Positions 11,146-20,687 of a DNA stretch of 23,764 bases are shown here, one piece after another. Location: IMG/VR virus record IMGVR_UViG_3300005590_000077, positions 1 to 23,764 of that record. One strand, written 5' to 3'. Position 1 is the stretch's first letter. Every line of letters starts with the position of its first letter. The notes beneath the pieces are model-generated. The model saw only the letters and a list, made by a program, of their open reading frames with translations, was not told where the DNA came from and made no database searches. A program made the translations under genes and the position numbers. This DNA is from a virus.

Positions 11146-12685
11146 CGGCATCCCCTGCAACATATGCTTTAAAGGTGGCTGCTGCCAAACTTCGGATCAT
11201 GGTTTCCATATCCATTTCCAAACCGCGTAACCCCTGAAGGACATCTTCGAAATTTTCCGAGTTATTGAAAAGCTCTTCGATCGGATCAATAACCGGCTGC
11301 ATTTGCGCTTGCCAGTTTTCAAGTCCAAGCTCTTCGATTTCATCATCAATGCTGACAGTTTTTTGAGAACGGTTTGCCGCCTTTTCCATATCGGGCTTAG
11401 GTGCCGAGGCTTCCTCAGCTTTCTTACCGATGACTTCATCGCCTGCTTGAGGGTCAGAGAAACCAAGTTTGGCCCGAACCTCCGAGGCTTTAACTGTCAG
11501 CCCCTTGTCTGCCAACTTGTCCAGTGCTTCAATAATCAGCGCGATATCTTCAGGCTCAAGCACCGGCATAGAGAAGGTCGGATAGGATTCCTGTGCGCCG
11601 AAGTTAATATCAACAAAAGCGCGAATTAAATCCCTATTGATCGTCAAGGCAAGCTGGCGGCAGTCTGATCTTAAAATGTCACGACGCACGTCTTCCTGAC
11701 TGTCTTCATTGCCAAGCTTACCCGGAGTTCCCTCAGAGCTGGCCGTTTGTCCGAGAACGCCTTTGGAAATCTGGCGATCCCACCATTCAGCGGTTGATTG
11801 GAAAACGGCAGCGCCATTACCGGCACCACCTCCCTGAGCAGCCTGTTCAAAGTCAATGCGCATGCCTTCAGGCAGGATCGCCGCCGCATCAGTGCCGATA
11901 TTAGCCACCGCCTGGACAAGGACATCAATGTCATCCTGCGTTGCGTTAGGACCGTAACGGCCAAGGCGCAGCGGCATCCCGAAGACTTCCAAAAATGCAT
12001 GCCAATCCTTGACCGTATAGCTTTTACACATGAAGGCCATCGCCGCCAATCGAGCCAAACCACCACGGATCGGCAAACCGGATTTAAGGCGGGGAATGTG
12101 GGTAATGAACCGATACGACGGTAAGAGAATGCCGAGCGGATTACTTTCATCAATTAAACGGATCTGTTTGCCTGTTTCCCGGTCCCACGTGAAAAAACGA
12201 GGATCGCGGTATTCATATCGTTCAACGGTCCAGAACCGGCCACGCTTCCAAACGATTTCGGCGACACTGTATCCTTTGGCCAAGGCATCCAGAAGATCGT
12301 CAAGGATTTCAACAAAGTTGGGGTCATGCAGGATGTGGGTGCGAACCGCATCCGCAATTTCTTTGTCCTTTGGCGCATCGGATGCCGGTTCAATTGCCAT
12401 CTCAACACTACCGATCGCACGCTTGCGGGTACCCAATACCGACTGATAATGTATTTCGCGTTCTTCCATTTCTTCAGCCAGCACGAGATAATCATGGGCA
12501 TCACCTTCAGCAGCGGCACGCATAATCGTAGCCAGTCGGTCCGGGGTCAGGCCAGAAGCAACGGTCGGCGACCAAGCATTACGAACGCCTGTCAAACTGG
12601 GGGCCGCAATCTCTTTTGTCAAAGATTGACGTTTAATCGGCAGGCCATCAGGCCCGTAAAGAACAACCTTTTTATTGTCCATCAT
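11135..12685 (-). CDS. Portal protein (DUF935, Mu gp29-like)
   Basis: 516 residues, matching Mu gp29 in size. Clear DUF935 stretches are YLVLAEEMEEREIHYQSVLGTRK and a later G-AEIVWKRG block (residues about 75-155), WHAFLEVFGMPLRLGRYG near residue 225, and SKGVLGQTASSEG near 315. Gp29 forms the portal ring through which DNA enters and leaves the head. The end is acidic and helical (about 430-510). ATGATG at the start overlaps the terminase stop, with AAGGA before it. The gp30 gene begins inside its last codons. Confidence 0.95.
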   Translation of the reverse strand: MMDNKKVVLYGPDGLPIKRQSLTKEIAAPSLTGVRNAWSPTVASGLTPDRLATIMRAAAEGDAHDYLVLAEEMEEREIHYQSVLGTRKRAIGSVEMAIEPASDAPKDKEIADAVRTHILHDPNFVEILDDLLDALAKGYSVAEIVWKRGRFWTVERYEYRDPRFFTWDRETGKQIRLIDESNPLGILLPSYRFITHIPRLKSGLPIRGGLARLAAMAFMCKSYTVKDWHAFLEVFGMPLRLGRYGPNATQDDIDVLVQAVANIGTDAAAILPEGMRIDFEQAAQGGGAGNGAAVFQSTAEWWDRQISKGVLGQTASSEGTPGKLGNEDSQEDVRRDILRSDCRQLALTINRDLIRAFVDINFGAQESYPTFSMPVLEPEDIALIIEALDKLADKGLTVKASEVRAKLGFSDPQAGDEVIGKKAEEASAPKPDMEKAANRSQKTVSIDDEIEELGLENWQAQMQPVIDPIEELFNNSENFEDVLQGLRGLEMDMETMIRSLAAATFKAYVAGDADAD

Positions 12686-14139
12686 AGAAGTCCTTTGCGT
12701 GCGTTAAAACCAGCGGTTAACCGGATATGGCGATCCAGTCCGTCTTCACTCGGCCTCACGGCTTGATAAGAATATGGTTGATACTGGGTCTGCGCAGCCT
12801 GACAAGCCAAAGCACCCGCCCAAAAACGATCAGCGTGCCCATCGGCATCACTGTCTGCAACGAAACGAGGAATACCTGTTTCCCCAGTGGTTTTCTTAAT
12901 TTTATGGAGATCGGCCCGAAGTTCCGGACGCGCAGCAGGAATGCGAATTTTACGATCATCAAATGTTTGCTTGATGGTTTGTGCCAGCATTTGCTTATTA
13001 CTGTTCGTGAACAGTAAACCTTCAACTCGTGTGGCACCATAACGGCGAATAGCGTCTTCAACCGGCTTTTCACCCATGCCAGTTTGGTCCATCATCAATC
13101 GAAGCATCCGATAATACATAACGAGGCGGTCCATTTCCGCATCCTGTGACGCAAAACTAGCACGCTTCAATATGGAGATTTCCCGAGTCCAGAGCACGTC
13201 ACCGACTTGCTCCAGAACCCAAGCAACCCACAAATCGTTTCTGGCCGCAATATCGTTCCCAATATAAACCGGACCGCCTGCATAAAGTTCAGGACGTCCA
13301 GCTAAAGGGTGCTCAACGGATGAAATGAGATCGTAATCAAGCCAAGCCGATGCGGCATCCAACCAGTGCAGCTCATATTCCTGCGACCAGACATCATCGT
13401 CGCGCAAGGCGGACTTAAGTTCCTGAATGTTACGAGGGAGCCCCTGATCCACAGCTTTATAAATGTCCGTGATATGGCGGCTCCAGCCATCTTCATCTGG
13501 AGCTGGAGTGTTAAGACCGCGCGCTTCCCAGCCGGGGCCTCCCGTCATCAAATCATAGAACTTATTGCCTTTTCCTTTAGGTGTAGAAACAACCCGTAAT
13601 TTGAGGCCACCTTTAGAGATTACAGGGAAAAGCGCACCCCAAATTTCACGACTATCAGCATGAATACCAAATTCATCAAGAAGCACATTGGCTGAAAAGC
13701 CCCGCGCCGTATCTGGGTTAGCGGGAAGAGCTGTAATGCGTGAACCTGACGGGAATGTAACCTCAAGAGCTTTGTAGGTCGCTGTTATACCTTTGCCTTT
13801 ATCTACAACATAGTCATATTCTCGCACTTCCGGATCCCGCTTGTGTTTCAGGACCGCGTTGTAGACATGATAAAACGCTTTAATCAGCGGTTTGATTGCC
13901 TCATCCATAGCTTCCTTAGACTGACGCTCCCCACGAGACAGGATAACCCAGCGGGTTCTTTTTCCTTCGATTTCATGGTCAATACAGTCTTCAACGATCT
14001 CGGCGCAGGTTGTAAATGTCTTACCTGACTGGCGGGAGAACATACCGATCTTGAAACGGCTTTTGTCTTTCAACCAAAGTCGCTGATATTTGTGAAAGTC
14101 GATGACTTTATCTTGAGAGTGGTTGCTTTCTGGGATCAT
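12682..14139 (-). CDS. Terminase large subunit (Mu gp28-like)
   Basis: 485 residues. Walker A-type SRQSGKT is at 35-41, the Walker B-type VLLDEF is at about 152-157, and an STPKGKGNKFYD motif-III-like stretch follows near 185. The C-terminal RNase H-like nuclease shows GNDIAARNDL with D296, and MMDQTGMG with D351, the usual metal-binding acids. The protein packages phage DNA, cutting host-flanked Mu-type DNA by a headful method. The start overlaps the end of the DUF3486 gene (small-subunit-like partner) by ATGA. Full length, no visible defect. Confidence 0.96.
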   Translation of the reverse strand: MIPESNHSQDKVIDFHKYQRLWLKDKSRFKIGMFSRQSGKTFTTCAEIVEDCIDHEIEGKRTRWVILSRGERQSKEAMDEAIKPLIKAFYHVYNAVLKHKRDPEVREYDYVVDKGKGITATYKALEVTFPSGSRITALPANPDTARGFSANVLLDEFGIHADSREIWGALFPVISKGGLKLRVVSTPKGKGNKFYDLMTGGPGWEARGLNTPAPDEDGWSRHITDIYKAVDQGLPRNIQELKSALRDDDVWSQEYELHWLDAASAWLDYDLISSVEHPLAGRPELYAGGPVYIGNDIAARNDLWVAWVLEQVGDVLWTREISILKRASFASQDAEMDRLVMYYRMLRLMMDQTGMGEKPVEDAIRRYGATRVEGLLFTNSNKQMLAQTIKQTFDDRKIRIPAARPELRADLHKIKKTTGETGIPRFVADSDADGHADRFWAGALACQAAQTQYQPYSYQAVRPSEDGLDRHIRLTAGFNARKGLL

Positions 14140-14657
14140 TCATCCCACCCCATAATGCGTTTTGCCTCAGCTGCAGCTTCACGACTATAGTCTCCAGCTT
14201 CAACAGCATGTTCAATCTTGGAAAGCTGCTCTTCACGCATCTCTTTTTTGATTTGGGCTGCCAACTTTTTCTGAGACACACTTGACCTTGCCAGATCAGC
14301 GACAGATCGGGTTAATTTGTTGATGTCGACCTTTTCAGGATCAATCTCAAAATCAATCAGAAGCGTGAAGACCTTTTCCTGCACAAGACGGATCAGGGCA
14401 TCGTTGACTGCCCCGTCTTCATCTGGGCTGGCTTCGACTACAGCCTTGGCCTGTTGAGTGATGGTTTTAAGGCTTCGCACCCGATCTTCAAAGTTTTGCC
14501 CCCAGCGATGAACTGCCGACTTGCTGATTTCAAAGCCAAGTTCCTGGAGCCATGCAGACAGCTCGGCATAATCACGAAACCCATCGGAGATCAGCTTCTT
14601 TTCCAACTGCTCACGCACTTTAGTTGGCAAGGTGTCAATTTTTGAACGAGGTGGCAT
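14136..14657 (-). CDS. DUF3486 family protein (Mu gp27-like, small-terminase-type)
   Basis: 173 residues. The N-terminus MPPRSKIDTLP, then VREQLEKKLISDGF, Y-ELSAWLQELGFEISKSAVHRWGQ, are the family signature and form a helix-turn-helix that probably binds DNA. The middle and end are helical. In Mu-like phages this gene always precedes the terminase large subunit, so a role as small terminase subunit, recognising the left end of the integrated genome for packaging, is widely inferred. The gene ends inside the ATGA overlap with the large subunit. No good ribosome site before its ATG. Confidence 0.92.
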   Translation of the reverse strand: MPPRSKIDTLPTKVREQLEKKLISDGFRDYAELSAWLQELGFEISKSAVHRWGQNFEDRVRSLKTITQQAKAVVEASPDEDGAVNDALIRLVQEKVFTLLIDFEIDPEKVDINKLTRSVADLARSSVSQKKLAAQIKKEMREEQLSKIEHAVEAGDYSREAAAEAKRIMGWDE

Positions 14658-14660
14658 TGC

Positions 14661-14972
14661 TTAGGCCCATTGTTTGGGACGAGCAATACCGGCCGGACAT
14701 GCGATCGTGTATTCCACCACATCAACACCGACACCCGTCAAGGCGGCTGCCCAGACCGGGGTTTCTTCGTTCGTCAGTTCAATCAGTTTCTTATCGCGAA
14801 GGTAATCAAGTTCCCTGCGCAATTGAGCCGGAGTGACCGCTAGAGAAACATCTGACAACGCTCTGAAGATCACAGTTTCAGAGACACTGGTCGGGCGACC
14901 AGCATCCAGAATGCGTAAAATCCGCCACCGGGTTTCTTCCCGGTTTGCCTTTTCGAGATCAACTTCGTGCAT
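14661..14972 (-). CDS. Winged-helix small protein at the Mu gp26 position
   Basis: 103 residues. The chain reads like a winged-helix domain: TRWRILRILDAGRP, then LAVTPAQLRRELDYLRDKKLIELTN, with a wing-like hairpin near WAAALTGVGVDVVEYTI. AGGA 8-9 bases before the ATG supports the start, which lies within the last codons of the gp25-like gene. At the place of Mu gp26 it is followed directly by DUF3486 and the terminase. A role in DNA recognition during packaging or in late regulation is possible, but I infer that from fold and place only. Confidence 0.8.
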   Translation of the reverse strand: MHEVDLEKANREETRWRILRILDAGRPTSVSETVIFRALSDVSLAVTPAQLRRELDYLRDKKLIELTNEETPVWAAALTGVGVDVVEYTIACPAGIARPKQWA

Positions 14973-15279
14973 GCACCCAATCCTTTATTCCGTCGAGCTT
15001 TTCGTTAAGTTTGTCCATTTTTTTATCGATCACAGTTGAGAAACGGATCCAGTCTTCCCGTTGGACAAATCGGTTGGGCAAATCCGTTTCAAGATCATGT
15101 AGTCGGGTTTCAAGTTCACGGCGGCGGGCAGCTTCTTTTTCCATATCGCTTTCGATATCGTCGAATTTCTTATCCATTCCAGCCACAGAGCGAACGATGA
15201 AATACCGGATGATCCCAACAAGAAAAGCGTTCCACGCGATGAATATAGCAACAAAAACGGCGATCATTTCCCAGTCCAT
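14959..15279 (-). CDS. One-helix membrane protein with coiled coil (DUF2730 / Mu gp25-like)
   Basis: 106 residues from the ATG at 15277-15279, chosen because AAGGAGG lies 9 bases upstream; a TTG 30 bases earlier has no support. Residues 3-26 form one hydrophobic helix (MIAVFVAIFIAWNAFLVGII), followed by a long charged coiled coil (residues about 35-95) with KKFDDIESDMEKEAARRRELETRLHDLETD-type spacing. This is the shape of DUF2730 (Mu gp25). It could take part in lysis as a spanin- or holin-like protein, or in head assembly. The class is likely, the function unknown. It is the only integral membrane protein in the lysis cassette. Confidence 0.75.
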   Translation of the reverse strand: MDWEMIAVFVAIFIAWNAFLVGIIRYFIVRSVAGMDKKFDDIESDMEKEAARRRELETRLHDLETDLPNRFVQREDWIRFSTVIDKKMDKLNEKLDGIKDWVHARS

Positions 15280-16064
15280 ACGCGCCGCCCTCCTTTGAGA
15301 AAGCGGCAATATTCCTTGATAGAATGATCTTTAAGCATTTGAACCGGATAAAAGCCGTCAAACCCTTCTTTCCACGCCGTAAACAATTCAATGCTACGAT
15401 CCAAAAAAACTTGCCAGAAATTAGGCTTCAGGATGATCTGCCCTTTGCGGTCGATGTAACAAAGGGTTCCGCTATGACGGTAGCCAAGCACAAAGAACGG
15501 CAACATGGGCACAACATCGGCCCCGTTGATAAAGCGCATATGCTGACCGGGGTGACGATTGGCCACGGCTGCACAAAATTCAGTATCACCAACACGAGGG
15601 CACCCAAAGGTCATAAGGCCGACTGGACGACTTTCTCCGATCCTATTTGCAGCAAGAACGGCAAGTGCGCCACCAAGGCTATGACCGGTCATCATCAGAT
15701 ATTGACTTCCCGAAAGATCGGCAATCGCCTGTTCAACATCATCCCAAATTTTATCCAAAGCTTGAGAAAAGCCTCGATGAACGCGACCGACACGACCTTG
15801 AGCAGACAAATCACGTTTGCGGATTTTAAGATCGGTTAGAATATCGCGTGGATCTTGTAGCTCAGTTCCGCGAAACACAACGATTACCACCTGATCATCA
15901 TGCACCATAAAGGCTTGCACGCCATCACGATCAAAAAAATGAATGCCTGAATAGCCAAAAGCGGAAACGGCCTGCTCAACAACATCATTGTCATCATAGG
16001 CCAGCTCGGCCAGAGACGCATAACGACGCGCTCTGACCATCAGTGTGGGACTGGCCAGTTCCAT
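15264..16064 (-). CDS. Class 3 lipase (alpha/beta hydrolase) in the lysis cassette
   Basis: 266 residues from the ATG at 16062-16064, which overlaps the lipoprotein stop (TAATG) and has GGGA upstream. Hallmarks are the oxyanion strand VIVVFRGTE (60-68), VHRGFSQAL (95-103), the nucleophile elbow GHSLGGA with Ser129 (127-133), FINGADVVPMLP with Asp183 (178-189), YRHSG (195-199), and the final DHSIKEY with His247. All three triad members of the Lipase_3 family are present. No signal peptide or membrane helix: it would act in the cytoplasm or escape after lysis begins. Probable substrate is a phospholipid or other acyl ester; unproved. Its neighbours suggest a role in membrane disruption at lysis. 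Confidence 0.88.
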   Translation of the reverse strand: MELASPTLMVRARRYASLAELAYDDNDVVEQAVSAFGYSGIHFFDRDGVQAFMVHDDQVVIVVFRGTELQDPRDILTDLKIRKRDLSAQGRVGRVHRGFSQALDKIWDDVEQAIADLSGSQYLMMTGHSLGGALAVLAANRIGESRPVGLMTFGCPRVGDTEFCAAVANRHPGQHMRFINGADVVPMLPFFVLGYRHSGTLCYIDRKGQIILKPNFWQVFLDRSIELFTAWKEGFDGFYPVQMLKDHSIKEYCRFLKGGRRVWTGK

Positions 16065-16594
16065 TACAAATTCCCTTGAATTTGCGCATGAAGTTGGTTG
16101 ACATGGGTTAAAAGTTCCTGCCATTCATCCCCGGTAGGGTCTCGACCTGCCTGATCAAGAGATCGCATCTGCCGTCGCACATGAATGGCCTCTTTACCCA
16201 ACTTTGGGGCCTGTGTAGCGAGTTTGAAAACCGATGTTTTTAGATCAAGGCCGACAATACTGATCCCATCTTTTGCAGCCAGAGCGGCGGCATAAAGACG
16301 CAAGGCTGACCGGGTCTGGTCAAGGGCCAAGGTCGTATCTTGACCGTTAAAGGTAACATCACGCAAACTTTCAATCGCCGATCGCGCCGAAAGGTCTGCA
16401 TTGCGAAATTCTTCAGAGGGCTGAGCAAGGGTGGCCAGACCTTCGTAGATCAGAAAAGCGCGATAGGCACGAAGATCGGCTGTTTCAGCCGGGCCGAATA
16501 CTTTATCGCGGACAGTGTCACAGGCTGCCAATCCGACAACCAACGACACGCAAAGAACCGCAAGAGCCATAAGGCTCTTAATGGACTTGGACAT
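16064..16594 (-). CDS. Helical outer-membrane-type lipoprotein in lysis cassette, unknown
   Basis: 176 residues from the ATG at 16592-16594, which has AGGAG 7-8 bases upstream. The start reads MSKSIKSLMALAVLCV and has a lipobox LAAC at about residues 22-25 (cleavage before Cys25). Positions after the Cys are D-T, compatible with inner-membrane retention (Asp at +2), though rules vary by host. The rest is helical, Ala/Leu/Arg/Gln-rich. Ending in TAATG with the lipase and overlapping the endolysin by 17 bases, it is locked between them. At 176 residues it is too long for an Rz1-type spanin; it could be a spanin-like, lysis-related or exclusion lipoprotein. Confidence 0.75.
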   Translation of the reverse strand: MSKSIKSLMALAVLCVSLVVGLAACDTVRDKVFGPAETADLRAYRAFLIYEGLATLAQPSEEFRNADLSARSAIESLRDVTFNGQDTTLALDQTRSALRLYAAALAAKDGISIVGLDLKTSVFKLATQAPKLGKEAIHVRRQMRSLDQAGRDPTGDEWQELLTHVNQLHAQIQGNL

Positions 16595-17165
16595 GAAGAA
16601 ACTCCTGTGAGTAAGCACGGTTAAGCCAACCATTGAGGTATTCAGCCAGATCCGGGCGGCTGTTCGTCAGCGAGCGATAAAAACCGGCAGCTTCAGAACA
16701 CAACGCCCCATGCATAACGACAGAATCAAGAGACGCAATCGCTTGACGGCTGCGAGAACCGATCAAACCATCAACAACCAAATTAGGGCCGTCAGCAGCG
16801 CGCACAGCACGTTGCAGGCACTTGTGCGCCTGAAAGCTTCCCATGTTGATTGAAAGGTCTACGGCCTTACCGGAAACAGGCCACGGCAAGTCGCCATAGC
16901 GGTATTTTTCCCACCAGTGATGGAAATAAATTTTACCCGCCGCCTCCAAGGTCATTGCCCGGATGTCGTCGGCATCGATGTCACCATCGAAGTCAAGATC
17001 GCCATCCATGAAGCCGTCGCCATCCAGATCAAGCAAACCAGCTTTCTTCAGAAAACGAAGGGAAATCCCGAAATTGGTAATGCCGCCCGGATCACTGGCG
17101 CGATCGGACAAGCCACCTTCATGTTTATGAATAATCGGAAGTACGTTTGTGTCGAAAGAAAACAT
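16578..17165 (-). CDS. GH108-type endolysin with acidic calcium-loop-like insert
   Basis: 195 residues. N-terminal segment with HKHEGG (Glu16 as catalytic acid), SDPGGITNFGIS, then later HHWWEKYRYGDLP, AVDLSINMG and the C-terminal PG-binding-like part with GLIGSRSRQAI, are the glycosyl hydrolase 108 (ZliS-type) layout. The enzyme cuts peptidoglycan. Between about residues 46-67 there are two D-x-D-G-D loops of EF-hand/dockerin type, not part of the usual family core, which may bind calcium. No signal peptide, so a pore is needed. The ATG lies inside an inverted repeat; GAGG is 8 bases before it. Confidence 0.92.
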   Translation of the reverse strand: MFSFDTNVLPIIHKHEGGLSDRASDPGGITNFGISLRFLKKAGLLDLDGDGFMDGDLDFDGDIDADDIRAMTLEAAGKIYFHHWWEKYRYGDLPWPVSGKAVDLSINMGSFQAHKCLQRAVRAADGPNLVVDGLIGSRSRQAIASLDSVVMHGALCSEAAGFYRSLTNSRPDLAEYLNGWLNRAYSQEFLHVQVH

Positions 17166-17308: not shown

Positions 17309-17713
17309 TTAGTCATCTTCCGGGTCTGAAAACAAATCTGATTGTTTTTCATCACCATACGGTGCACGGACCATTCGAACCCAGCGTGAAGTGACGCCAA
17401 ACTCTTTTGCAACCTTATTGGTTGAACCCTGTGCACGGGCAATGAGGGACTTCTTAGATTTATAAAAAGCGGCATTAGGGATTTCCACCCATTCACGACC
17501 GCGCATTTCTGACATCACTTTTGCAGCATCTCTGCCGACACATTGGACAAGCCAATGATCATCGGCAAGTCTGGTAGACCCTTCCGGTATATATTTGCGC
17601 TGTCCGCCATAATCAGCCGCCAATCGCAAGGCAAGACCGACTGACGTTGCTCTTGCAAATTCTGCAAGCAACGGCGGCAGCCCTGCGATTGATTGTTGCT
17701 GATTATCGGTCAT
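17309..17713 (-). CDS. mor: Mor-family transcriptional activator
   Basis: 134 residues, like Mu Mor (129). The N-terminal part has a dimerisation region with LLAEFARATSVGLALRLAADYGGQ, a Y-PEGSTRLADDHWL segment and a linker. The C-terminal HTH includes SLIARAQGSTNKVAKEFGVTSRWVRMVR (about residues 90-118). In Mu, Mor turns on the middle promoter that makes C, which then activates the late genes. No separate C gene is visible here, and Mor sits directly upstream of the lysis/head operon, so it probably activates it itself. Start overlaps the HNH stop (ATGA). Confidence 0.9.
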   Translation of the reverse strand: MTDNQQQSIAGLPPLLAEFARATSVGLALRLAADYGGQRKYIPEGSTRLADDHWLVQCVGRDAAKVMSEMRGREWVEIPNAAFYKSKKSLIARAQGSTNKVAKEFGVTSRWVRMVRAPYGDEKQSDLFSDPEDD

Positions 17714-18342
17714 TTTTTAAATTCTGCTTTCTGACGTTGGGAAACGCTGTGTTTCAGTTCAACGATAGCCATAACGGTTGGCTTCAGATCGTCGGGTGCA
17801 TTGTCATAATCATGCCATTTGTTCAGGCTTGGCAGCATGGCTCTTGGGATTAATTTCCAATTCTCAAGGACTAGGTTCTGTTTGTCTCCGTCCAGGCATT
17901 TGAGAACCATACCTTCCGGGATCGGACCGTTTGCTTGCTCCCATAAATAGCGGTGCTTAAGCACATAGCGACGTTCAAATCCTGTGTGTGGGTTGGTTTC
18001 TTCTATGCTGATTTCAACATATCCATCCTTGGAAACACGCTCATGCCCTGCAAACTTAGTGTTGTGGGGACGTTGCCCTTTCTTGAACCGGGTGCGTGCG
18101 CTGTTCGGGTTATAGGGCATTTTCTTACCCTTGTTCGCCGGAACACTCCCCTTGGAATATTGACCTGTCCTGCCAGTGTACCAACCATTACGCTTGCAAA
18201 GGCTGCGAAGATTGTCCTTGGAAACCTCACTGCGACCAAAAACTTTCACAAATTCAGCATGAAGCTCTATTCTCGGCATCTCTTTACGTGCCTCAATCCA
18301 GCTTAACTCTTCTTCGCTATAGGTTATGGTCTTGCGGGTCAT
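17710..18342 (-). CDS. Degenerate HNH-type protein with His to Cys/Lys change
   Basis: 210 residues. N-terminal half: HTH-like (ELSWIEARKEMPRIELHAEF; VSKDNLRSLCKRNGW), a linker with Lys-rich SKGSVPANKGKKMPYN, and RFKKGQRPHN. C-terminal half carries the HNH_3 outline: RRYVLKHRYLWEQANGPIPEG, then VLKCLDGDKQNLVLENWKLI. In active HNH_3 nucleases the second segment reads like H-H-x-D-G; here K-C-x-D-G replaces the His pair, so cleavage may be lost or changed. It may bind DNA without cutting. The same gene is placed between a small early gene (TAATG overlap) and mor (ATGA overlap), so it is part of the middle operon. Confidence 0.7.
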   Translation of the reverse strand: MTRKTITYSEEELSWIEARKEMPRIELHAEFVKVFGRSEVSKDNLRSLCKRNGWYTGRTGQYSKGSVPANKGKKMPYNPNSARTRFKKGQRPHNTKFAGHERVSKDGYVEISIEETNPHTGFERRYVLKHRYLWEQANGPIPEGMVLKCLDGDKQNLVLENWKLIPRAMLPSLNKWHDYDNAPDDLKPTVMAIVELKHSVSQRQKAEFKK

Positions 18343-18997: not shown

Positions 18998-19725
18998 TGC
19001 GCGTCCCCCTGTTCGCGGATCTTCTTGCCAAAATGCTCAATCAGCCGATCGGCAACGTCAGCGTCCAGCATGGTGTAAGAAATCCGGCAGGGTGAATCTG
19101 AGAACTTGGTGGCGTAAATCGACAAGCCACCTGTGGTCTTATGATCTGAAATCTTGCGCCATTGGGCTTCCAGAACTCGCGCACGACCATTGTAAACGGT
19201 GGTTGGGCCAGCGTTTGTATGGACAATATATCCTTCCCAGCTGACCTTGGCCTCACGTTCTGCCATCTTCTTGAGTGACTCGATGACCTTATAGGCTTGT
19301 GATTCCGTCATAGCCTGAAGCGGGAACGTCACATTTTCATTGCCCTTGGCACCGAGACAGATGCGCTTTGCATGATTCTCCAAAGCTTCTTCCTTCGGAT
19401 TACGAACGACACCAAGGTGATAAAGGGAGAGCCACAATGCACGGGCCTTTCGCTGTACCTTGCCATCAGCCAGACGTTTACGTCCTGCACGTTGCGGTAC
19501 CTTTTGGGCCTTCTTGGTCTTAAATCCAGCCTCTTTCATCAAAGACAGAGCATCTTCCAGTTCAGCAAAAGTCAGTTGCTTTAAAGATGTTTTCCCAAAG
19601 TTCTGTTCAAGCCAGTCTCGGTAAAATTCTGTCGCCCAGCCAAGATCGTTTCTGCCAATGTTGATTTTTGCATACATCCCCCGACGTTGAGGACTGACTG
19701 TTGCTTTCTTCGTTGCAGCACTCAT
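18994..19725 (-). CDS. gemA: GemA regulatory protein (Mu gp16-like, DUF1018)
   Basis: 243 residues. DUF1018 core: RRGMYAKINIGRNDLGWATEFYRDWLEQNFGKTSLKQLTFAELE (about 13-60), followed by FKTKKAQKVPQRAGRKRLADGKVQRKARALWLSLYHLGVV with basic residues. The C-terminal part continues from about residue 110 with FPLQAMTESQAYKVIESLKKMAERE, then a distinct IVHTNAGPTTVYNGRARV section. Mu GemA alters host gene expression and DNA supercoiling. Mu gp16 is about 190 residues; this C-terminal extension of about 70 residues is unusual and may be a fused or extra small domain. ATGA overlaps join both neighbours. Confidence 0.88.
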   Translation of the reverse strand: MSAATKKATVSPQRRGMYAKINIGRNDLGWATEFYRDWLEQNFGKTSLKQLTFAELEDALSLMKEAGFKTKKAQKVPQRAGRKRLADGKVQRKARALWLSLYHLGVVRNPKEEALENHAKRICLGAKGNENVTFPLQAMTESQAYKVIESLKKMAEREAKVSWEGYIVHTNAGPTTVYNGRARVLEAQWRKISDHKTTGGLSIYATKFSDSPCRISYTMLDADVADRLIEHFGKKIREQGDAQ

Positions 19726-20687
19726 TTTACGCCTCCACTAAACATATCACTTTGATTACCCCAAGCGGCCCAACCGGGACGCTTTTGACGGGCGAATAGC
19801 TCACACCGGAAAGCACCCGGCCAAAGGCGTTCAAGAATTTCATAAACGTCATCTGGTTTTCTGGAATGTTCGCGTACTTTGGCTGAAATAATATTCTGCT
19901 CTTCAAAAGTCTGGATGGTGTTACGCAATCCGCGATCAGCAATAACCGGCTTGCCACGGGTACCAATCAGAAATGGTTCACAACAACCCGAACGCAGAAT
20001 ATGGCCTGTGCTGAAATGCTCTTTTCCATGCTTGGTCCACTTGAACCATGCACCGCCTGTAGCAACGTTAAAGCCCCAATGGCGCATAATTGTCGTTGCA
20101 TTCCCCATGTGGGACCATGTTGTCCACATGAACAAAAGGCAACTTTTTGCTGCCAACCCGGCAACCGGCATTGCCGCAATATCTTCAAGGCTCATGCAAT
20201 CGTAAGGGCGATCTTTTGGATTTGTATCGCCCCAGACATCAAACGGCCATGCTGGATCCGCAAGGATGACACCATAGGTATTTTGATGCAGTGGGTGAAA
20301 ATACCATCCCAAGTCATCGGCAGGTTCCCAGCCAATTAAAGCCCCTTTAAATGGGAATTCATGAGTATTTTTAAGCCACGACATCATGTGCATAAGGTTG
20401 GCAAAGCCATCATTTCGGGCCAACCAGTCAATCTCCTGCATGGAAAGCTGCGCACCATTGAGAAAGAAATTGCTTTCAGTGATGAAAACCGGCTCGTAAC
20501 GATCACACTTCACATCTTCTTCGATGATTTTCTCACAAGCGGAGGTGCGCATACCGGTATAAAGCTGCAACATATCTCCTTTTTTCGCATGAGGACGACC
20601 ATCAGCCCGGTCAATGCGGATCGTGTGGCGCTTCTGGCCGGACTGAATCATCGGCACAAACTGTTTTTGAAAATTAAACGCGACCAT
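19722..20687 (-). CDS. ASCH domain fused to MT-A70 family adenine methyltransferase
   Basis: 321 residues. Residues 4-121 resemble a phage-type ASCH domain: FQKQFVPMIQSGQKRHTIRI, KKGDMLQLYTGMRT, and FPFKGALIGWE at the end. Residues 137-310 are an MT-A70 domain: catalytic DPAW at 144-147 (usual DPPW), LLFMWTTW near 184-191, EPFLIGTRG, and HSRKPDDVYE near 274. These enzymes place a methyl on N6 of adenine in DNA or RNA. In Mu, mom modifies phage DNA against restriction, so self-protection is plausible. The Pro to Ala change in DPPW is notable. Both domains are usually separate. A short overlap (14 bases) joins the gene to its upstream neighbour. Confidence 0.88.
   Translation of the reverse strand: MVAFNFQKQFVPMIQSGQKRHTIRIDRADGRPHAKKGDMLQLYTGMRTSACEKIIEEDVKCDRYEPVFITESNFFLNGAQLSMQEIDWLARNDGFANLMHMMSWLKNTHEFPFKGALIGWEPADDLGWYFHPLHQNTYGVILADPAWPFDVWGDTNPKDRPYDCMSLEDIAAMPVAGLAAKSCLLFMWTTWSHMGNATTIMRHWGFNVATGGAWFKWTKHGKEHFSTGHILRSGCCEPFLIGTRGKPVIADRGLRNTIQTFEEQNIISAKVREHSRKPDDVYEILERLWPGAFRCELFARQKRPGWAAWGNQSDMFSGGVK

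Follow-up and report, generated by a model that had tools for sequence, protein, structure and literature searches.

What part a class 3 lipase might play in the lysis block of a Mu-like phage is the question raised by the locus described here. The locus lies in an IMG/VR record of 23,764 bases (IMGVR_UViG_3300005590_000077), an incomplete phage genome that was analysed at its full length and is hereafter called the window. The window carries the Mu-like phage genes GemA, Mor, Gp27, terminase, gpF-like, I-like protease, gpT capsid, and baseplate J. The late block follows Mor on the minus strand in this order:

17309..17713, minus strand: Mor-like late transcription activator, preceding the lysis block (PF08765, PHROG 836)
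16578..17165, minus strand: GH108 endolysin with a PG_binding_3 domain (Pfam, 8.6e-19 and 6.1e-11)
16064..16594, minus strand: lipoprotein of 176 aa (from the sequence)
15264..16064, minus strand: class 3 (fungal-type) lipase of 266 aa (Pfam, predicted fold, and triad)
14959..15279, minus strand: gp25-like protein in the position of the Mu releasin (PHROG 462, 2.4e-11)
14661..14972, minus strand: protein in the position of Mu gp26 (PHROG 436, 2.1e-29; gene order)
14136..14657, minus strand: Mu gp27-like small terminase (PF11985, 5.9e-40)
12682..14139, minus strand: large terminase, gp28 (PF03237/PF17289)

The lipase gene is located inside the lysis block, on the same strand, and overlaps its neighbours on both sides. 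The lipoprotein stop and the lipase start share the letters TAATG, and the lipase gene overlaps the gp25-like gene by 16 nt; both overlaps had been proposed in an earlier reading made from the letters of the window (the sequence-only reading), and both are real. The 3' end of the endolysin gene overlaps the lipoprotein start by 17 nt. No close relatives were found in the bacterial genomes scanned. Some other genes of the window deserve mention. An HNH endonuclease gene (17710–18342) lies just upstream of Mor, and no equivalent was seen at that position in the related contig L002. The product of 19722–20687 has an MT-A70 adenine methylase domain (residues 138–312) and an extra N-terminal part that is ASCH-like by eye; the L002 contig encodes a shorter protein resembling a stand-alone MT-A70. 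A 497-aa protein with a Peptidase_G2 autocleavage domain is encoded at 474–1967, where the late region has its distal end.

The lipase ORF (15264–16064, minus strand) is intact. Its longest ATG form begins at 16124; the start at 16064 has an AAGGGA-like ribosome site of its own, and the homolog in L002 begins at the matching place. The protein matches Lipase_3 (PF01764) with an E-value of 2.8e-26 (92.5 bits versus a cut-off of 22) and carries the triad Ser129 (in GHSLGG), Asp183, and His247, exactly the residues that the sequence-only reading had named. The three residues are invariant in 97 of the 97 phage homologs surveyed (among the matches listed), and the conservation on which that reading had depended was thus borne out. 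A second histidine, at residue 197 (YRH), is almost invariant besides the catalytic one (80/80 and 16/17 of the matches listed). The Ser and Asp residues align with catalytic residues of Rhizomucor miehei lipase in an alignment that ends short of the His, and the sequence relatives in the PDB are fungal lipases, feruloyl esterase A, and plant phospholipase A1. The AlphaFold2 model of the lipase (pLDDT 89) has the alpha/beta-hydrolase fold of the fungal-lipase type. Its top fold match is feruloyl esterase A (2ix9; Z 27.1, 229 residues, rmsd 2.6), and further matches are R. miehei lipase (Z 26.0) and phospholipase A1 (Z 22.4). The comparison of the window and L002 genes gave a dN of 0.12 and a dS of 1.01 (dN/dS of approximately 0.12), indicating that the lipase is under purifying selection. 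Judging from the Pfam match, the fold, the invariant triad, and the purifying selection, the lipase is very probably an active hydrolase. Its identity and arrangement are far beyond chance. The fold and the triad do not fix the substrate: the top fold match is a feruloyl esterase, and triacylglycerol lipases and feruloyl esterases are also members of the Lipase_3 family. We infer a phospholipase activity on host membrane glycerophospholipids. Neither a signal peptide nor a hydrophobic N-terminus was found in the window lipase, which is soluble as judged by its sequence, and a scan of 91 phage lipases revealed no hydrophobic N-terminus; the window lipoprotein has a clear one. The lipase is therefore expected in the cytoplasm, like an endolysin.

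The neighbouring products were examined in the same way. The GH108 endolysin displayed no N-terminal signal or SAR segment. The lipoprotein has a signal peptide and a lipobox (LAAC, with Cys25 of the MSKS form) that are clear from the sequence. It is predicted to be all-helical in a low-confidence model (pLDDT 68) and gave no significant family match; homologs were found in no phage records, and within IMG/VR only in the L002 contig. A match of the lipoprotein to spanin2 (NCBIfam, E-value of 0.011) was given no weight, as it reached 16 bits versus a cut-off of 100 and included the signal peptide. Two-component spanins (Rz/Rz1) combine a coiled-coil protein of the inner membrane with a lipoprotein of the outer membrane, usually encoded by overlapping genes; the window has the lipoprotein, and a hydropathy scan revealed no i-spanin partner for it. 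The gp25-like protein consists of one N-terminal helix and a coiled coil, and showed weak tblastn matches to membrane proteins of other phages. It gave no match to DUF2730 (PF10805) at an E-value of 1; its position and single helix fit a releasin.

In phage Mu, lysis is holinless and employs the SAR endolysin gp22, the spanins gp23/gp23.1, and the releasin gp25, which frees the SAR endolysin (PMC9239132). The role of gp25-type proteins in combination with endolysins lacking SAR segments was left open (PMC9239132). The window resembles Mu in that the block occupies the same slot between the late activator and gp26/gp27/gp28, includes a gp25-like one-helix protein, and contains no visible holin. 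In contrast to Mu, the window has a GH108 endolysin without a SAR segment, and a lipoprotein and a lipase are found where Mu has its spanins. The hydropathy scan, which covered window ORFs of at least 35 aa, detected no ORF bearing more than one strongly hydrophobic helix and no spanin pair.

Fifty Mu-like records were examined, comprising the L002 contig and 49 relatives found by terminase; holins and spanins were called on several of the relatives by hydropathy and gene order. Lipase_3 was present in only 1 of the 50, the L002 contig. This contig has the same gene order as the window, with identities of 83% for the lipase, 92% for the lipoprotein, and 96% for the GH108 endolysin, and the genes upstream of the block differ between the two. 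The early part of the L002 contig showed no small holin-like late gene with several helices. Beside its early end, dGTPase-like and serine-recombinase-like genes were noticed by eye (L090, 646–4502), and this region is possibly a host junction. Another contig, L010, starts inside the tail of a third such lipase, upstream of the terminase, and the order GH108, lipoprotein, lipase, and gp25 is probably also present there. Other relatives carry different genes in the same interval. The two GH108-bearing relatives, L014 and L020, have a GTA_holin_3TM gene (6.8e-25 and 2.5e-26), the isolate Alteromonadaceae phage B23 has a pair resembling i- and o-spanins, and Rhodovulum phage vB_RhkS_P1 has a small hydrophobic protein. 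The window shares with the GTA-type holin and GH108 modules of L014 and L020 the position of GH108 directly after Mor and before gp25, but the slot of their GTA_holin_3TM gene is occupied by the lipoprotein and the lipase. The sequence-only reading had suggested a lipase in place of an obvious multi-helix holin and spanin pair. This proposal fits the intervals of L014, L020, and the isolate relatives but is unprovable on a fragment: the absence of a holin and spanins is known for the fragment only, and either gene may lie elsewhere in the genome. A holin is a small membrane protein with transmembrane helices, which the lipase is not, although a holin-like action of the lipase is conceivable.

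In order to place the lipase among other phages, lipase loci were collected by a profile scan of IMG/VR, which yielded at least 80 loci and constitutes a sample. Spanin-like or lysozyme genes lay within approximately 3 kb of the lipase in 22 of the 80 loci listed, besides the L002 contig itself. Eight marine T4-like loci (L120, L145, L146, L154, L160, L164, L167, and L168) have, in this order, a lipase, a one-TM protein, and an overlapping i-/o-spanin pair; in L178 the pair directly follows the lipase, and in L155, L158, L161, and others it lies less than 3 kb away. The representatives belong to the 'Rz-like spanin' families PHROG 739 (i-spanin, 5e-17) and PHROG 812 (o-spanin, 4e-7). In seven loci (L147, L148, L151, L152, L156, L170, and L172), the lipase directly follows a phage lysozyme gene, whose end ranges from 4 bases inside the lipase gene to 17 bases before its start, and a lysozyme-like gene is found within 2.5 kb of the lipase in L121, L137, and L157. 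The representative lysozyme matches PF00959 (8e-7), a domain common to lysis and tail lysozymes, and its best PHROG matches are tail lysozymes.

In the whole-contig search, 20 contigs were positive for the i-spanin; its gene lay no more than 3 kb from the lipase in 15 of these and more than 10 kb away in the other five. The short distance was found in 6 of the 10 contigs of at least 30 kb (1.2 expected) and, with one hand-picked contig per clade, in 5 of 10 (1.5 expected, P of approximately 0.006); these adjacency counts are inflated by closely related contigs, and the P values serve only as a guide. The i-spanin of L003 is about 138 kb from the lipase on the linear record and 63 kb if the record is circular, and the counts are unchanged either way. 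Lipase_3 genes are also found without an annotated lysis gene nearby in phages P-SSM2, XacN1, and Cr-LKS4. Together with the distant spanins of the five T4-like contigs, these cases indicate that the Lipase_3 family is not tied to lysis.

A further lineage, the Burkholderia-type prophages, comprises Shewanella phage vB_Sb_QDWS, Burkholderia phage BgManors32, and 17 IMG/VR loci. The two named phages have the order GH19/chitinase-type endolysin, small holin-like protein (69 and 109 aa in the pair), lipoprotein, and lipase. The lipoprotein and lipase genes of this lineage overlap by ATGA. A lipoprotein ending at the lipase start was extracted in 15 of the 17 loci, and a small hydrophobic ORF is listed in most of them, not all. 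Where two of these lipases are more than 85% identical, the mature parts of the lipoproteins in front of them are 14–93% identical, the low values being those of shuffled sequence. A dedicated inhibitor should track its target, and unrelated lipoproteins in front of near-identical lipases argue against such a function; the lipoprotein is thus probably not a dedicated lipase inhibitor. The very diverse lipoproteins before nearly constant lipases (L179–L195, L092, and L196) could be surface-exclusion proteins.

In a tree of the lipases, which has weak deep support and some long branches, those linked to lysis genes fall into several separate clades: the Mu pair, the Burkholderia type, and two T4-like groups. 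GH108 was dismissed as a constant partner of the lipase, since a close relative of the window GH108 was found only in the L002 contig. The association of Lipase_3 with GH108 endolysins, for which the sequence-only reading had proposed a survey of phages, is accordingly confined to a small clade around the window, although linkage of lipases to lysis genes recurs in the unrelated T4-like and Burkholderia-type phages. These phages also narrow the replacement proposal, as the lipase is there added to spanin or holin-like genes and replaces none of them.

The nearest parallels found are lipolytic enzymes of two other families that are encoded in phage lysis cassettes. A GDSL lipase is encoded in the lysis cassette of Pseudomonas syringae phage psageB1, and its esterase activity and a role at the outer membrane have been reported or proposed (PMC8537276, PMC12173070). 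The window shares with psageB1 a lipolytic enzyme gene in the lysis cassette of a Gram-negative phage, adjoining a holin and an endolysin in psageB1; unlike the window lipase, the psageB1 enzyme belongs to the SGNH/GDSL family and has a carbohydrate-binding domain. LysB of mycobacteriophages, the second enzymatic lysin, is directed at the outer lipid layer, with a mycolyl-arabinogalactan ester as substrate, and is encoded in the lysis cassette (PMC5707550). LysB is similarly a lipid-directed enzyme of a lysis cassette but differs in family: the Pfam matches of the window lipase are only Lipase_3 and a weak Hydrolase_4, and its model gave a weak fold match to the Lysin B of a Gordonia phage (E-value of 0.03). 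The view of LysB as a related idea from another family agrees with this, the LysB sequence family not being matched. The GDSL and LysB families are both distinct from the class 3 lipases, for which no report as lysis genes of Gram-negative phages was found in the open-access literature.

To our knowledge, the known holins and spanins of Gram-negative phages break membranes without lipid hydrolysis. The presence of the lipase in the lysis block, together with its relatives beside lysis genes in unrelated phages, suggests that some phages may have an overlooked lipid-cutting step in the opening of Gram-negative cells. On the basis of sequence and gene order, we consider it reasonably probable that the window lipase is a late cytoplasmic enzyme hydrolysing host envelope lipids at lysis. 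It would be made late from the lysis transcript, with the GH108 endolysin, the lipoprotein, and the membrane protein in the releasin position, and, having no export signal, would accumulate alongside the endolysin in the cytoplasm. It might then hit the inner membrane, alone or with the gp25-like protein, and free the non-SAR endolysin in a holin-like manner. Alternatively, it might exit with the endolysin through a membrane lesion and, after cleavage of the wall, act on the inner leaflet of the outer membrane, a spanin-like role. In the T4-like and Burkholderia-type phages, the latter or a helper role would be more likely because spanins or a holin-like gene are present. That the cytoplasmic class 3 lipase, with the lipoprotein and the gp25-like protein as helpers, replaces the holin and spanins in this Mu-like clade by hydrolysing membrane phospholipids is a tentative and rather doubtful extension.

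The late co-expression would fit equally well if the lipase were not involved in cell breakage and, once released, only cleaved membrane debris, vesicles, or surface lipids, thereby freeing progeny or degrading host polymers. With their spanin or holin-like genes, the T4-like and Burkholderia-type phages would not need a lipase for opening the cell, and an EPS or LPS target has been proposed for the GDSL lipase (PMC12173070). This explanation nevertheless leaves the missing holin and spanin genes in the interval of this clade unaccounted for, and we regard it as unlikely. We give still less credence to a moron, that is, a lysogenic conversion or auxiliary metabolic gene that happens to sit in the late operon. 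The occurrence of Lipase_3 in a single record of the Mu-like set indicates a probably acquired gene, and other phages carry Lipase_3 genes away from annotated lysis genes. However, the coding sequence of the window lipase runs into those of both neighbours, the scan detected no promoter or terminator signal above chance, the GC content of 0.489 is like that of the neighbours, and the linkage of lipases to lysis genes is repeated in other phages.

The lipoprotein raises another possibility. Type VI lipase effectors have lipoprotein immunity proteins, and in those pairs, too, the lipase and lipoprotein genes are side by side. The two products in the window might accordingly form a toxin-immunity or enzyme-inhibitor pair in which the lipoprotein protects the periplasmic side up to the time of lysis, and overlapping lipoprotein-lipase pairs do occur in two unrelated phage lineages. 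Unlike the type VI pairs, however, the window genes belong to a phage late operon with no secretion apparatus, the lipase has no export signal, and the Burkholderia-type lipoproteins, whose mature parts are as little as 14% identical, do not co-vary with their lipases. Such a pair is, in our judgement, quite improbable.

If the lipase does replace the holin and spanins in this clade, class 3 lipases would form a fourth component of the lysis modules of Gram-negative phages, one recruited repeatedly and on separate occasions. A lipase encoded in this interval, and beside lysozymes and spanins elsewhere, would offer a testable answer to the role of gp25-type proteins in the absence of a SAR endolysin. 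Such lipases would also draw attention to enzymes acting on the envelope from the inside.

The T4-like loci contain further small proteins around the lipase. A conserved one-helix protein of 95–102 aa (beginning with MWDMI or MWEII) is encoded directly after the lipase in about 15 loci (for example, L160 5630–5917 and L145 3976–4284) and in several of them lies just before the spanin pair; it is a candidate for an unrecognised holin or antiholin. In eight loci (for example, L160 6666–7130 and L146 6858–7307), the spanin pair is followed by a coiled-coil protein whose C-terminus carries a hydrophobic anchor.
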